This document shows positions 3,057 through 52,356 of a stretch of 52,557 bases of DNA, one piece after another (position 1 is the first letter of the stretch; each line of letters opens with the position of its first letter). The translations under genes and the position numbers were made by a program. The stretch is taken from the NCBI GenBank assembly GCA_001399795.1, contig LIHK01000054.1, forward strand, positions 375 through 52,931, read 5' to 3'. Source of the stretch: Candidatus Bathyarchaeota archaeon BA2 (GTDB taxonomy: Archaea > Thermoproteota > Bathyarchaeia > Bathyarchaeales > Bathyarchaeaceae). The notes below the pieces were generated by a model that did not search any database, had not been told where the DNA came from, and saw only the letters and a program-made list of their open reading frames with translations.

Positions 3057-3833
3057 ATGTTGGCAGAAGTAGTTTTAACACCATCCGAATCCAAAAGACT
3101 CATAGGAAAAGCCGTAGCCTCCACGGAAGTCGTGAAGGAAGCCCTCAAATCAGGTCTCATTGTAATAATAAAGGGCACAACCAACAGCTACGTAGCCGAA
3201 GAAATACTAAAAGAGACAATTGAAAAAGAGAGGTACGGACGAGGCATCATTGTTCCTGGAATGCTAAGTTACTTGCCAGATGAAGAATCCATCCCAGACA
3301 TCATCATTGAAAAGGGCAAAGTAAGGAAGGACTTAAGCCTTGAAGAAGCCGTTAAAATGTTGAAAACCGGCGACGTGCTTATAAAGGGAGCAAACGCCCT
3401 AGACCCAGACGGCATAACAGGGGTCTTCTTAGCCCGCGCACCCACCACAGACGGCGGAACCATCGGACGATCCCTCGGAACAGTGGTGGGAAGAGGCGTA
3501 AAATTCATAATCCCTGTAAGCCTCGAAAAATTAATTCCCGTGCCAATCAGGGAAGTTGTCACCCAACTCAACGACAAAGAAATTAACCTGGCGATGGGAT
3601 TAACCGTAAACGTGATGCCCACCATGGGAAAGGTCGTTACAGAAATAGAAGCCTTTAAGATTCTAACTGGAGTCGAAGCCGTCAACATAGGAGCAGGGGG
3701 CGTAGGCGGAGCTGAAGGAGCCCGTGTATTCCTCCTAAAAGGAGACGAGGAAGCCGTCAAGAAAGCCTTCAACTTGGTACAGAGCATCAAAGGAGAACCA
3801 CCCTTCAAGCCAGCATCCTACTGGCACGAATAG
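3057..3833 (+). CDS. Conserved hypothetical protein
   Basis: 258-aa ORF with a coding-like composition; no family recognised with certainty. Confidence 0.7.
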   Translation: MLAEVVLTPSESKRLIGKAVASTEVVKEALKSGLIVIIKGTTNSYVAEEILKETIEKERYGRGIIVPGMLSYLPDEESIPDIIIEKGKVRKDLSLEEAVKMLKTGDVLIKGANALDPDGITGVFLARAPTTDGGTIGRSLGTVVGRGVKFIIPVSLEKLIPVPIREVVTQLNDKEINLAMGLTVNVMPTMGKVVTEIEAFKILTGVEAVNIGAGGVGGAEGARVFLLKGDEEAVKKAFNLVQSIKGEPPFKPASYWHE

Positions 3834-46825: not shown

Positions 46826-49087
46826 TTGCATGCAGAAATCAAAGTCAGCGGCATCGTTCAAGGCGTGGGTTTCCGACCTTTTGTCTACCGAGTTGCCGTA
46901 GAAAATGGACTAGTTGGCTATGTGCGAAACCGAGGAGACGCAGTCGTGGAAATCGTCGTTGAGGGAAAGAAAAAAGACGTTAAACGGTTCCTCAAAAATT
47001 TGAAAGAGAAAAAGCCTCCTCTCGCTCGAATCTACGATATGACAACCAATTACACCGAAGATAAGAACAAATTTAAACAATTTACGATTCTGAAGAGTTC
47101 CGAGAATGTTGAACTCTCCGGGTCTGTTATCCCACAAGACGTTTCGATCTGCGACGAATGTTTAAGCGAACTTCGAGACCCGAAAAATAAACGTTACAAC
47201 TATTTTTTCATCACGTGTACAAACTGCGGTCCTAGGTACACGATTATTGAGAAACTTCCCTACGATAGGCTGAACACCACCATGCAAGACTTCTTTATGT
47301 GTGACTTCTGTTTCAAAGAATACAACGATCCGTCAAACAGAAGGTTTCACGCTCAAACAGTTGCTTGCCCTAAATGTGGCCCAAAAGTCTACCTCACCAC
47401 AAATAACGACGAATCCATAAAGCATGAAGATCCCATAAGAGAAGCAGGCAAACTCTTGGAGGAAGGCTACATTGTTGCCATCAAGGGAAATGGAGGCTTC
47501 CACATCGCAACATCCACCACCAAGTCTGAACCCATTGCCAGATTGAGAAAGGTCAAGTATAGAGCCCAGAAACCTTTTGCAATAATGGCACGCGACATAG
47601 ATACCACAAAATCCTTCGCGGAGGTGAATATGAAAGAGGCCGAGCTGTTAACTTGCTATATTAAGCCCATAGTTTTGTTAAAGAAAAGGGATGACTACTA
47701 CCTTTCAGAACTCATCTCTCCCGGTTTACACAACATTGGTGTGATGCTTCCGTACACGGGCTTGCATGCAATGCTTTTTGACAAGGTACGGGAACCCGCC
47801 TTTGTTATGACTAGCGCAAACCCTCCCAACGAACCAATAGTCACGGAAAATGTTGAAGCCATGAAAAAGCTTGGTTCCGTGGTGGACTTCTTTCTTTTCC
47901 ACAACAGAACAATCGCCCATAGATGCGACGACTCTGTTGTTCGTCTCCACGGTGAAGATCAGAGTATAATTCGTAGATCAAGGGGGTACGCTCCTGAGCC
48001 TGTTCATCTGAAACGTTTGGCGGACAGTTATGTCTTAGGAGTTGGTGCAGAGTTCAACGTAACTTCATGTGTGCTTCTGCGGAACAAGGCTTTCATTTCA
48101 CAGCATGCCGGAGATGTTGATAACTTAGAGACGCTTGGCTTCTTGAAAAGTGCCATAAATCATTTGATAAAATTGACGAACAGCAAGGTTGAAGTTATAG
48201 CCTGTGACCTGCATCCAAAATTCACCACGACAAGGCTGGCTCAAAACCTAGGAGAAAAACTTGAATGTTCAGTGGTTCCAGTTCAACATCACCACGCTCA
48301 CATCGCCTCTCTCATGGGTGAACACGATGTTGACGAAATGATAGGCATAGCCTGCGATGGCTTCGGTTACGGTTCAGACGGCAACGCTTGGGGCGGAGAG
48401 ATACTCTACTGCAACCATGACGGTTTTCAGCGTTTGGGGCACCTTCAAGAGCAACCTATGGTGGGAGGCGACCTAGCCACGCTTTACCCATTAAGAGTGG
48501 CTGCCGGAATACTTTATGGCGAGGCTGATATTGAAGAATGGCTGCTGTTAAACAGCGACCGCTTCCCACACGGCAGAAGGGAAGTTGAAGTAATCGTTAA
48601 ACAGTTGGGAAAAGGATCAACACCCAAAACCACGAGTTGCGGGAGAGTACTAGACGCCGTGTCAGCAATACTAGGCATATGTTACGAGCGAACCTACGAG
48701 GGCGAGCCAGCGATGAAGTTAGAGTCTGCTGCCCTGAAGGGAAAAGACGTTTTAAAATTGACGCCAGAATTCAGGGGAAACGCCATCGACACCACACTTC
48801 TTGTTCATGAAATCTTCAATCAGAGAGGGAAACATTCGGTCGCTGACTTGGCTTGCTCAGCCCAGTCCTACCTTGCAAGGAGTTTAGCTGAGTTGGCTGT
48901 AGAGGAGGCGGAGCAACTTAACGTTGACTTTATCGGTTTTTCTGGGGGAGTTGCCTATAACGAGTACATCACAGTAACGATTAGAAAAATTGTTGAGGAA
49001 AACGGTTTCAAGTTCCTTGTTCATAATCAAGTTCCGCCTGGAGACGGAGGAATTTCATTTGGACAAGTCGTCGCTGCAGCCTTCTAA
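46826..49087 (+). CDS. hypF: Carbamoyltransferase HypF
   Basis: Acylphosphatase N-domain VQGVGFRPFVYR; two zinc fingers (CDECL...CTNCG; CDFCFKEY...CPKCG); YrdC and Kae1-like domains. Confidence 0.95.
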   Translation: MHAEIKVSGIVQGVGFRPFVYRVAVENGLVGYVRNRGDAVVEIVVEGKKKDVKRFLKNLKEKKPPLARIYDMTTNYTEDKNKFKQFTILKSSENVELSGSVIPQDVSICDECLSELRDPKNKRYNYFFITCTNCGPRYTIIEKLPYDRLNTTMQDFFMCDFCFKEYNDPSNRRFHAQTVACPKCGPKVYLTTNNDESIKHEDPIREAGKLLEEGYIVAIKGNGGFHIATSTTKSEPIARLRKVKYRAQKPFAIMARDIDTTKSFAEVNMKEAELLTCYIKPIVLLKKRDDYYLSELISPGLHNIGVMLPYTGLHAMLFDKVREPAFVMTSANPPNEPIVTENVEAMKKLGSVVDFFLFHNRTIAHRCDDSVVRLHGEDQSIIRRSRGYAPEPVHLKRLADSYVLGVGAEFNVTSCVLLRNKAFISQHAGDVDNLETLGFLKSAINHLIKLTNSKVEVIACDLHPKFTTTRLAQNLGEKLECSVVPVQHHHAHIASLMGEHDVDEMIGIACDGFGYGSDGNAWGGEILYCNHDGFQRLGHLQEQPMVGGDLATLYPLRVAAGILYGEADIEEWLLLNSDRFPHGRREVEVIVKQLGKGSTPKTTSCGRVLDAVSAILGICYERTYEGEPAMKLESAALKGKDVLKLTPEFRGNAIDTTLLVHEIFNQRGKHSVADLACSAQSYLARSLAELAVEEAEQLNVDFIGFSGGVAYNEYITVTIRKIVEENGFKFLVHNQVPPGDGGISFGQVVAAAF

Positions 49088-49142: not shown

Positions 49143-49361
49143 ATGTGTCTCGCAATCCCGGCTAAGGTCCTAAAAGTTCAAGGAGACGTTGCAAAAGTCG
49201 ATTTTGGGCAAGGGGTTGCCCGAGACGTAAATGTCATGCTTGTAGAAGCCCGTGTGGGCGAATATGTTTTGGTTCACGCGGGATACGCCATTCAAGTTAT
49301 CGACCGAGAGGCGGCTGAGGAAACCCTCCGATTATGGGAAGAAATCCTCAAATATGAATGA
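49143..49361 (+). CDS. hypC: Hydrogenase assembly chaperone HypC
   Basis: MCLAIPAKVLKVQGDVAKVDFGQGVARDVNVMLVEARVGEYVLVHAGYAIQ. Confidence 0.95.
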   Translation: MCLAIPAKVLKVQGDVAKVDFGQGVARDVNVMLVEARVGEYVLVHAGYAIQVIDREAAEETLRLWEEILKYE

Positions 49362-50062
49362 AAGTTGGGAGGCATTACGCTTTGACTCGTTTGAAGGAAG
49401 CTGTCAAGGCTGAGGAAGGAGAAATCTACGACATAGAGCTTGATGCGGATCTTCTGAAAGTCAACGAAGAACTAGCAGCAAAAAATAGGGAGCTTTTACG
49501 GAAACATAATGTAACAGCAATTGATGTCATGGGAGCCATCGGATCGGGAAAAACCACCCTCATTGAAAAACTTGTTCAAGCGTTAAAGGGAAAGTATAGG
49601 ATCGCGGCTTTCAAGGGCGATTTGACAACAACAATAGACGCGGGGCTTATTGGAAAACACGGCGTAGAGGTTGTTCCCATTAACACTGGAAAAGAATGTC
49701 ATCTGGACGCAAACTTGGTGAGAAAGGCGTTCAAAAGAATTAACTTAGCGGAAATCGATCTCCTCTTTATTGAAAACGTTGGAAACCTCATTTGCCCCGC
49801 AGACTTTCCACTAGGCTCTGAGAAACGCATCGTTGTAGTAAGCGTCACCGAAGGACCCTACATGGTTGTTAAGCACCCGTTCATCTTTATGAGAGCAGAC
49901 GTAGCGGTTATAAACAAGAAGGATTTGGCCCAAGCGATGGGAGTTGATGTTAAGAAACTGGAGACGGATGTTAAGGAGATAAATCCAAACGCAAAAGTTG
50001 TGGCGACGAACTGCAGAAGCGGAGAGGGCGTCATAGAAGTGGTCTGTGCGTTGGGACTCTAA
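49358..50062 (+). CDS. hypB: Hydrogenase nickel incorporation GTPase HypB
   Basis: VMGAIGSGKTTLIEKL, FIENVGNLICPADF. Confidence 0.95.
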   Translation: MKVGRHYALTRLKEAVKAEEGEIYDIELDADLLKVNEELAAKNRELLRKHNVTAIDVMGAIGSGKTTLIEKLVQALKGKYRIAAFKGDLTTTIDAGLIGKHGVEVVPINTGKECHLDANLVRKAFKRINLAEIDLLFIENVGNLICPADFPLGSEKRIVVVSVTEGPYMVVKHPFIFMRADVAVINKKDLAQAMGVDVKKLETDVKEINPNAKVVATNCRSGEGVIEVVCALGL

Positions 50063-50088: not shown

Positions 50089-50460
50089 GTGCATGAATTT
50101 TCCATGATAACGCAAATCGTGGAAAACGTTCTTAAAGAGGCTGAAAAACATAGGGCAAAGAAGGTCACGGAAGTTAATCTTGTTATAGGAAAGCTGACGT
50201 TTCTAGGTCTCGAACAGGTTCGCTTCTCCTACGACGTACTGGTGAAGGGCACCATAATGGAGGGTTCAAAGCTTTACATAGAAGAGAAGAACGGTGTTGT
50301 CAAGTGTTCCAGTTGCGGCTACGAAGGAGACTTCATGTATGAAGACGATCCGATGTTTCACGTTCCAACCCCTACGCTTCACTGTCCTAAGTGTGAAGGC
50401 GTAGTCGACATCGTTAGAGGAAGAGAGTGCACGATAAAAAGCGTAAAACTCATAGTATAG
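50089..50460 (+). CDS. hypA: Hydrogenase nickel metallochaperone HypA, GTG start
   Basis: (M)HEFSMITQIVENVL; CSSCG...CPKCEG zinc site. Confidence 0.95.
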   Translation: MHEFSMITQIVENVLKEAEKHRAKKVTEVNLVIGKLTFLGLEQVRFSYDVLVKGTIMEGSKLYIEEKNGVVKCSSCGYEGDFMYEDDPMFHVPTPTLHCPKCEGVVDIVRGRECTIKSVKLIV

Positions 50461-50522: not shown

Positions 50523-50777
50523 GTGGGCAATAAATCGATTTGGTGGGAATATATGACGGTTGTGACGTTGAGTTCGAAGGGTAGATTAACGCTTCCAGCC
50601 GAGGTAGGGACTAAAATTAAAGCAGCAAGGTTTTTGGTTGTTTTGGAAGGCAATTCCATTAGGTTGATTCCGCTTTCAGACCCATTAAAATTAAAGGGGT
50701 CGGTTAAGATCCCTTGGAGCATCGAGGAGCTTGAAGAGGCTGGCGAGGAATTTGTATCCAAAAGAGTTGAAGGGTAG
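50523..50777 (+). CDS. AbrB-family antitoxin-like DNA-binding protein (VapB)
   Basis: VVTLSSKGRLTLPAEVGTKIKAARFLVVLEGNSIRLIPL. Confidence 0.8.
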   Translation: MGNKSIWWEYMTVVTLSSKGRLTLPAEVGTKIKAARFLVVLEGNSIRLIPLSDPLKLKGSVKIPWSIEELEEAGEEFVSKRVEG

Positions 50778-51199
50778 ATTCCTCTTAGACTCTGATGTTT
50801 TATATCGTATATTAGAGGGAATATAAGCTTGCAGACCATGCGGAGGTTGTTGTAAAATCAATAGTTGAAGGCATGGCAGAAGTGTTTGTATCATCTATGT
50901 TATATGATGATGTGATTTCTGGACTACGCTCAAAGGGCATGGAGCTCGCAGATGTGATGCAGGTTCTCACAGCTATAGCGTCAATACCTCATACACCTCT
51001 TCCCGTAACTCCAGCAATCGCTATAAGCGCTTTAACACTTTACATGCAGCATGGCGGTCCAAGAAAAATCCATTATTTCGATACGTTTCATGTGGCAACG
51101 GCTAGACTTCATGAATTGCCGATGATAACAAGCGACATTTACATAAACGAACATCAAAGGAACCTAGGTATAACAGCGGTTGACCTGAAAAAGTTATGA
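50767..51199 (+). pseudogene. PIN-domain toxin (VapC-like), frameshifted near 50816-50823
   Basis: LKGRFLLDSDVLYRILEG in frame 1 (TTG 50767, stop 50824), continuing in frame 2 as EYKLADHAEVVVKSIVEGMAEVFVSSMLYDDVI...YFDTFHVATA...LPMITSDI. Confidence 0.75.
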
Positions 51200-51222: not shown

Positions 51223-52356
51223 ATGGTAAATGTAGTGGGGGTGAGGCTGGCGTCAATTTCTAGGTTTAGAGATCCAAACCTAGTTCGGAAAACAGCAGAA
51301 CACATCAAAAAACTAGCAGAAAGAAGTAAATTCACGTTCATGCATGTGTGTGGAACGTATTTAGCAACCTAGCTAGATACGCACAAGACACATGAATGGA
51401 CGATAGCCCGCTACGGTCTTCGAGCTCTTCTTTCCGACACTGTGGATGTTATTGCTGGGCCGGGCTGTCCCGTCTGCATCCTCCCCGCAGCTGAAATCGA
51501 CGAGGCGATATCGTTAGCCCTAAACGAAGTAACTGTTGTAACCTTCGGCGACGTTATTCGGGTTCCTGGCTCTGAATCGTCGCTTCAGGAGGCAAAGGCT
51601 TCTGGTGGGGACGTTAGGATTGTGTATGGCGTTGGGGATGCTGTGAGAATGGCGGAGAAAGAGCCAGACAAGGATTTTGTTTTCTTTGCTATTGGGTTTG
51701 AAACCACGGCGCCGTCTACTGCCATTGAAATCCTTAACAAGCCGCCCCAAAACCTTAGCTTTCTCGTCTCCCATAGGTTGATTCCGCCAGCCATGGAACT
51801 GCTCCTCGGTGTAGGAAACCTTCACATAGACGGCTTCATCGCACCTGGCCACGTTTCCACCATCATCGGAATGAAGCCCTATGAAATATTTCCCAATGCC
51901 TATCGAATGCCTACTGTGATAGCCGGATTCGAGCCTCTGGATGTTCTTTTCGCCATCTCCATGCTGCTCCAGCAGTTAAAGGACGGGGAAGCCAGACTTG
52001 AGAATGAGTATAAGCGTTCTGTCACGTGGGAGGGCAACGTCAAAGCGCAGCGGCTCATGGAGCAAGTGTTCAGTGTGGTGGATGGATGCTGGAGGGGACT
52101 TGGAAAACTTCCCCTATCAGCGCTGGCATTAAAGGAAGAATTCCTAGAGTACGATGCGAGGAAAAAATACGACTTACAGATTGAACGTCCCAGAGACCTG
52201 ATGCCTGGTTGCCTTTGCCACCTAGTCATGATTGGAAAGATAAAGCCTCCAGAATGCCCTCTCTACATGAAGGCTTGCACGCCTCAGACTCCTAAGGGAG
52301 CGTGCATGGTTTCAATTGAAGGCACTTGCAGAATATGGGCCAAACATAAGCTATGA
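51223..52356 (+). CDS. hypD: Hydrogenase maturation protein HypD, predicted join(51223..51354,51388..52356) after removal of a 33-nt BHB intron
   Basis: Spliced N-terminus MVNVVGVRLASISRFRDPNLVRKTAEHIKKLAERSKFTFMHVCG^THEWTIARYGLRALLSDTVDVIAGPGCPVCILP; GTG 51241 is an alternative start; rest is canonical HypD. Confidence 0.93.
51355..51387 (+). other. Predicted 33-nt archaeal bulge-helix-bulge intron in hypD mRNA
   Basis: Outer helix CATGTG/CACATG (51343-51348/51389-51394), 4-bp central helix TGTG/CACA (51349-51352/51382-51385), 3-nt bulges GAA (51353-51355) and AGA (51386-51388), 10-bp inner hairpin 51356-51365/51372-51381; in-frame TAG 51370-51372. Confidence 0.9.

Follow-up and report, generated by a model that had tools for sequence, protein, structure and literature searches.

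The window, by which we mean the whole 52,557-nt stretch of DNA analysed here, comes from a draft genome of Bathyarchaeia (1.46 Mb in 57 contigs, 92.5% complete, 3.5% contamination). On its forward strand it carries a hyp cluster, which starts upstream of hypD with hypF (46826–49087; TIGR00143, 879 bits) and continues with hypC (49143–49361; TIGR00074), hypB (49358–50062; TIGR00073) and hypA (50089–50460; TIGR00100). An AbrB/VapB-like open reading frame and a broken PIN-like frame are inserted between hypA and hypD (50523–51199), the broken frame lying directly upstream of hypD exon 1; in the related locus L004, hypD follows its upstream gene almost directly. The hypD gene, on the same strand, is in two parts. 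Exon 1 (51223–51354, MVNVV...FMHVCG) carries the HypD cysteine that corresponds to Cys38 in the T. kodakarensis protein and to C41 in that of E. coli, and exon 2 (51388–52356, THEWTIARYG... to the stop) matches the NCBIfam model TIGR00075 for HypD. Between them lie 33 nt, ACGTATTTAGCAACCTAGCTAGATACGCACAAG (51355–51387), with an in-frame TAG at 51370–51372. A preliminary description of this DNA had reported hypD as split in just this way, and all of its coordinates and letters were verified.

The two junctions form a strict bulge-helix-bulge (BHB) motif, with an outer helix of 6 bp, a central helix of 4 bp, two 3-nt bulges on opposite strands and an inner helix of 10 bp, all encoded on the forward strand. 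The outer helix pairs CATGTG of the His-Val codons (51343–51348) with CACATG of the Thr-His-Glu codons (51389–51394), and the central helix pairs TGTG (51349–51352) with CACA (51382–51385). The 5' bulge is GAA (51353–51355), with a cut predicted after 51354, and the 3' bulge is AGA (51386–51388), with a cut predicted after 51387. The inner stem, with the 5' strand CGTATTTAGC (51356–51365), pairs with 51372–51381, includes one U-G pair and is closed by the loop AACCTA (51366–51371). Every helix, bulge, stem and loop of what had been called a textbook motif checked right. The outer helix had also been said to continue beyond a G/A mismatch as CAT/ATG; this extension exists, but it is longer than described, and 7 bp were found (51335–51341/51396–51402). 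The insertion point in hypD lies between GGA and ACA. Because the flanking letters repeat, several cut placements give an intact HypD; the full BHB geometry is present in only one of them, with cuts between nucleotides two and three of each bulge, and these cuts match the exon borders obtained from the protein alignment. The canonical cleavage proposed earlier, giving GGA-ACA and CGTHEW, is this sole placement.

The folding of the region was then compared with shuffled sequences. The results showed that it folds at -32.8 kcal/mol (z = -6.7), and none of 200 shuffles was as good. The canonical BHB conformation reaches -31.4 kcal/mol, 1.4 kcal/mol short of the ViennaRNA minimum-energy fold, and the register of the central helix is the sole difference between the two. 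In a strict BHB scan of the window (outer helix of at least 4 bp, central helix of 4 bp, two 3-nt bulges, inner helix of at least 5 bp), the hypD site ranked first, with a score of 15.5 against 13.0 for the next; the hypD loci fetched from other genomes were inspected at the motif. Of 140 whole-window dinucleotide shuffles, one reached a score of 15.5 at any position, a figure that leaves out the coincidence with the codon border of a conserved motif. No Rfam model, whether for group I or group II introns or for other families, reached its gathering score in the window. Allowing up to three mismatches, the 33-nt intron had a single occurrence in its own genome and was absent from the 259 other genomes of the class, and a mobile repeat was therefore rejected. 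Comparison with tRNA introns revealed no convincing similarity, leaving an origin from a tRNA intron unsupported.

Removal of the 33 nt restores CGTHEW. Against TIGR00075, the spliced product scores 467.7 bits, compared with 437.2 bits for exon 2 alone, and it aligns through the motif with T. kodakarensis HypD (2Z1D), the motif cysteine being residue 38 by count. In E. coli HypD, C41 has been described as essential and iron-coordinating (PMC12130793). The closest HypD relatives, L003 and L004 (about 87% and 86% identity in exon 2, range 85–87%), have an uninterrupted C-G-T-H-E, as do ten further loci from Bathyarchaeia or Lokiarchaeota, and exactly these 33 nt are missing there, which bears out the alignment to intronless genes of close relatives that had been proposed as a check. 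Exon 2 compared with L003 gave dN 0.065 and dS 0.77 (dN/dS about 0.08), indicating purifying selection.

Exon 1 (51223–51354) has diverged much further, with a protein identity of 44% to L003 and L004, as against 86–87% for exon 2. Its synonymous sites are saturated, and the break in divergence is located at the intron. Among gene pairs with a similar exon 2 identity, the median exon 1 identity is 69% (5th percentile 51%). Either fast evolution or a replacement through recombination close to the intron may account for the divergence of exon 1. At its edge, another contig of the same assembly, C15, opens with 82 nt of the 3' end of another hypD, and hypE lies on it at 3335, about 3.2 kb beyond this partial hypD. 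The end of the window contig is a 54-nt exact match to C15:1426–1479, a typical assembly fork. The hypD end on C15 represents either a second hypD, a strain variant, an assembly fork or a tandem duplication. The region C15:1–1620 (L002, L048) comprises the hypD 3' end, an NYN-like gene, a 26-nt remnant of a hypD end and a nucleotidyltransferase gene, the last being 93% identical over 228 nt to the gene at the end of the window.

Other hypD genes were surveyed for comparable interruptions. The survey covered all 260 genomes of the class (201 with HypD) and 400 genomes drawn from the phylum (HypD was present in 255, 66 of these being class members), to which the order and class of one intron carrier were added; the total was about 390 hypD-bearing genomes, including 24 weak matches not viewed singly and several fragments at contig edges. 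Nine more interrupted hypD genes were found, with inserts of 20–37 nt that mostly break the frame. Two carriers belong to Bathyarchaeia (G029, 33 nt; G225, 37 nt) and one to family f62 (G442, 26 nt), and in family f54 the intron is present in all six hypD-bearing genomes (20, 21, 22, 22, 23 and 25 nt), while hypD of its sister family f49 is intronless. In all nine, the predicted cut splits the Thr codon of C-G-T between its second and third letters, 2 nt downstream of the window intron; we refer to the window position as site A and to this one as site B. All nine site-B introns have a 4-bp central helix of CGGC or CGGU with GCCG and 3-nt bulges ACA and ANN, and canonical cutting gives C-G-T-H-E exactly in each. 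The inner helix is short in G029/L103, with 2 bp followed by a mismatch, and some of the inserts contain TAA or TGA. The motif was intact in 103 fetched loci, and 80 weaker HypD matches of the phylum yielded no clear additional intron. Loci with long spans or split matches (L115–L117, L134–L140 and L152–L157) were rejected as intron carriers, as the motif was intact in them. One of these, L115 (G238:C1:345000–349500), has an intact hypD; about 2 kb upstream of it lies a further, partial HypD match that contains an in-frame TAG.

Covariation was assessed on an alignment of the nine site-B introns, with the window intron excluded. The results showed that 97.4% of cells were paired, as against 31–40% when the partner was slid by 1–3 columns. 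Compensatory double changes occurred in all six counted inner-helix pairs, the sixth being present in only two sequences, and the covariation score was reached by none of 500 shuffles. Unguided RNAalifold recovered the same central and inner helices, with the outer helix in another register. Helix covariation among carriers, which had been named earlier as a further check, was thus found for site B; since the window intron occurs in one genome only, it comes from separately gained introns.

To place these introns on the gene's history, we used a tree built by quick search from 95 rows of HypD exon 2. It placed all site-B carriers and one intronless sequence (L018) in a single clade (SH-aLRT 95). 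A constraint uniting only the nine carriers was not rejected (p 0.59), and forcing the window gene into one clade with the site-B HypDs was rejected on exon 2 (p-AU 1.8e-51), AU values that are rough, given the quick tree, with a large separation. The window intron also differs from the site-B intron in its site, 2 nt upstream, in its central helix (UGUG/CACA versus CGGY/GCCG) and in its separate HypD clade. The rejection of a joint clade of the window gene and the site-B carriers means that hypD has gained introns at least twice at one motif. One gain, at site A, belongs to the lineage of the window gene, which has intronless genes as its nearest relatives. The other, at site B, with perhaps one loss, is spread over two classes via descent or transfer. 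The intronless L018 (genome G214) lies inside the site-B clade of the quick tree and is a candidate for precise loss, and it may lie just outside that clade.

The splicing machinery was examined in the source genome, which was the sole genome tested for it. Two EndA paralogues were found. The 185-aa protein (alpha) has retained the catalytic Tyr, His and Lys, and its alignment with A. pernix EndA takes in the stretch of the Crenarchaea-specific loop; the 193-aa protein (beta-like) has Leu and Thr in place of the catalytic Tyr and His. The pair thus appears to be of the crenarchaeal (alpha-beta)2 type, judging the subunit assembly from sequence; Haloferax EndA is of another type. Work on cbf5 has linked (alpha-beta)2 EndA to mRNA introns and relaxed motifs (PMC2738675). 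The source genome also has an RtcB gene and many tRNA genes with introns. The tRNA genes L056 and L077–L080 have introns of 15–71 nt, some apparently off the canonical position 37/38, within the rough borders drawn by ARAGORN.

With a probability of roughly 0.93, we infer that an archaeal BHB intron of 33 nt interrupts the hypD pre-mRNA, which would be cut by EndA and joined by RtcB. In the folded hypD transcript, the His-Val-Cys-Gly and Thr-His-Glu codons would supply the outer helix together with one half of the central helix. Cuts after 51354 and after 51387 would be made by the heterotetrameric (alpha-beta)2 tRNA-splicing endonuclease, and RtcB would ligate the exons, bringing back the C-G-T-H-E-W motif. 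Translation of an unspliced hypD mRNA would end at the TAG, six codons past Cys-Gly. Maturation of [NiFe]-hydrogenase would then depend on the tRNA-splicing machinery, a claim that the hypD allele on C15 weakens as far as dependence on the window copy is concerned; the anatomy of the intron is unaffected.

That allele is also what speaks for a dead window gene, in which the insert or its TAG would have killed hypD and an intact second copy would serve the cell: C15 begins in another hypD, with hypE following later, and the window contig ends at its C15 match. We regard this as unlikely, since exon 2 is under strong purifying selection. The exact BHB geometry at the frame-restoring position is not what a random inactivating insert would produce, and nine other genomes have such introns, mostly in the only hypD matched.

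Much less probable still is stop read-through, by which the TAG would be decoded as pyrrolysine or suppressed, leaving an 11-residue insert in HypD. In its favour, the insert length is divisible by three and only one TAG lies in frame, and ARAGORN run without the intron option did call a tRNA-Pyl; however, this "tRNA-Pyl" is an intron-bearing tRNA with a sequence like tRNA-Arg(UCU). No PylS exceeded the cut-off in the 92.5% complete source genome, in which the positive control was found, and with the tRNA-Pyl call spurious, pyrrolysine read-through was ruled out for this genome. The 11 extra residues would moreover split the iron-binding motif, and most site-B inserts have lengths not divisible by three, with TAA or TGA present in some of the nine. 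The spurious ARAGORN call (L066, C5:35127–35219) is a trap for pyrrolysine annotation in archaea. Translational bypassing, as in T4 gene 60, deserves no more credence: a ribosome could be imagined to hop the stable hairpin right after the GGA codon, but the take-off and landing codons are unmatched (GGA versus AAG), the site-B inserts interrupt a Thr codon, and the BHB bulges and central helix are left unexplained. Least credible of all is an assembly or binning artefact, for although the assembly is a draft of 57 contigs with 3.5% contamination, an artefact would not set a perfect BHB at a codon border, and comparable inserts occur in independent genomes, including 6/6 hypD-bearing genomes of one family.

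The BHB intron reading raises the matter of why this motif is affected. His-Val-Cys-Gly-Thr-His-Glu can be encoded by CAY GTN TGY GGN ACN CAY GAR. Three of the four site-B outer pairs (U-G, U-A and G-C) involve letters that the Val-Cys and His-Glu codons leave invariant; the remaining pair joins two third-codon letters. At least three of these four pairs are possible in 82 of 91 distinct intact contexts, and all six site-A outer pairs are possible in 1/91. Because the window has all six, and seven more beyond the mismatch, its sequence suggests that the codons have been tuned to the intron. We tentatively propose, at somewhat less than even odds, that the partly self-complementary codons of this motif preform the exon half of a BHB and make hypD an intron target, with introns gained at least twice and kept; the window exon 1 may have arrived with its intron by recombination, as a case of exon shuffling. 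The cbf5 intron also lies within the codon of a catalytic residue (PMC2738675).

No paper joining hypD with a BHB intron was found in the literature searched, a search that left most subscription journals and preprints outside its coverage; the earlier remark that none was known in hypD agrees with this. According to a 2020 paper, cbf5 is the only earlier reported mRNA BHB intron besides that paper's own 5'-UTR intron (PMC7714728), and unproven predictions in other genes are cited by PMC2738675. The cbf5 pre-mRNA intron of Desulfurococcales and Sulfolobales (Watanabe 2002; Yokobori 2009, PMC2738675) resembles the hypD introns in being of BHB type within the coding sequence, in a cut expected between the second and third bulge nucleotides at the codon block of a catalytic residue, in its hetero-oligomeric EndA, and in its lineage-specific presence and loss. 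In contrast, cbf5 functions in RNA modification and hypD in metal-cofactor assembly; the hypD introns occur in Bathyarchaeia and another class of the phylum, lineages other than those of cbf5; hypD has had at least two gains 2 nt apart; and most cbf5 motifs are unconventional BHBs, whereas those of hypD are 3-4-3.

The HVO_1309 intron of Haloferax volcanii (PMC7714728) is likewise in an mRNA processed by EndA at a BHB, but it lies in the 5' UTR and leaves the protein uninterrupted. Archaeal tRNA and rRNA BHB introns share the RNA motif and presumably the enzymes, and also sit at the most conserved functional sites; the hypD host differs in being a protein-coding mRNA in which the exon halves of the motif are codon-dictated. 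Elements of the rudivirus SIRV1 (Peng 2004) have, as cited in PMC2738675, also been proposed as short archaeal introns in protein genes, but in that account they are 12-bp viral elements with putative splicing.

Hardly any introns are known within archaeal protein genes, and hypD is the second archaeal protein gene after cbf5 with recurrent BHB introns, independent of cbf5. A second gene, with at least two gains at one motif, indicates that the machinery for tRNA splicing has come to act on mRNAs more than once, and hypD offers a test case for the origin of such mRNA introns. In intron-bearing genomes, HypD will be cut short or missed by gene callers, and a hydrogenase pathway that is in fact intact may be taken for an incomplete one. 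For the archaea concerned, which are uncultured, the hypD introns would tie hydrogen metabolism to the enzymes of tRNA splicing.
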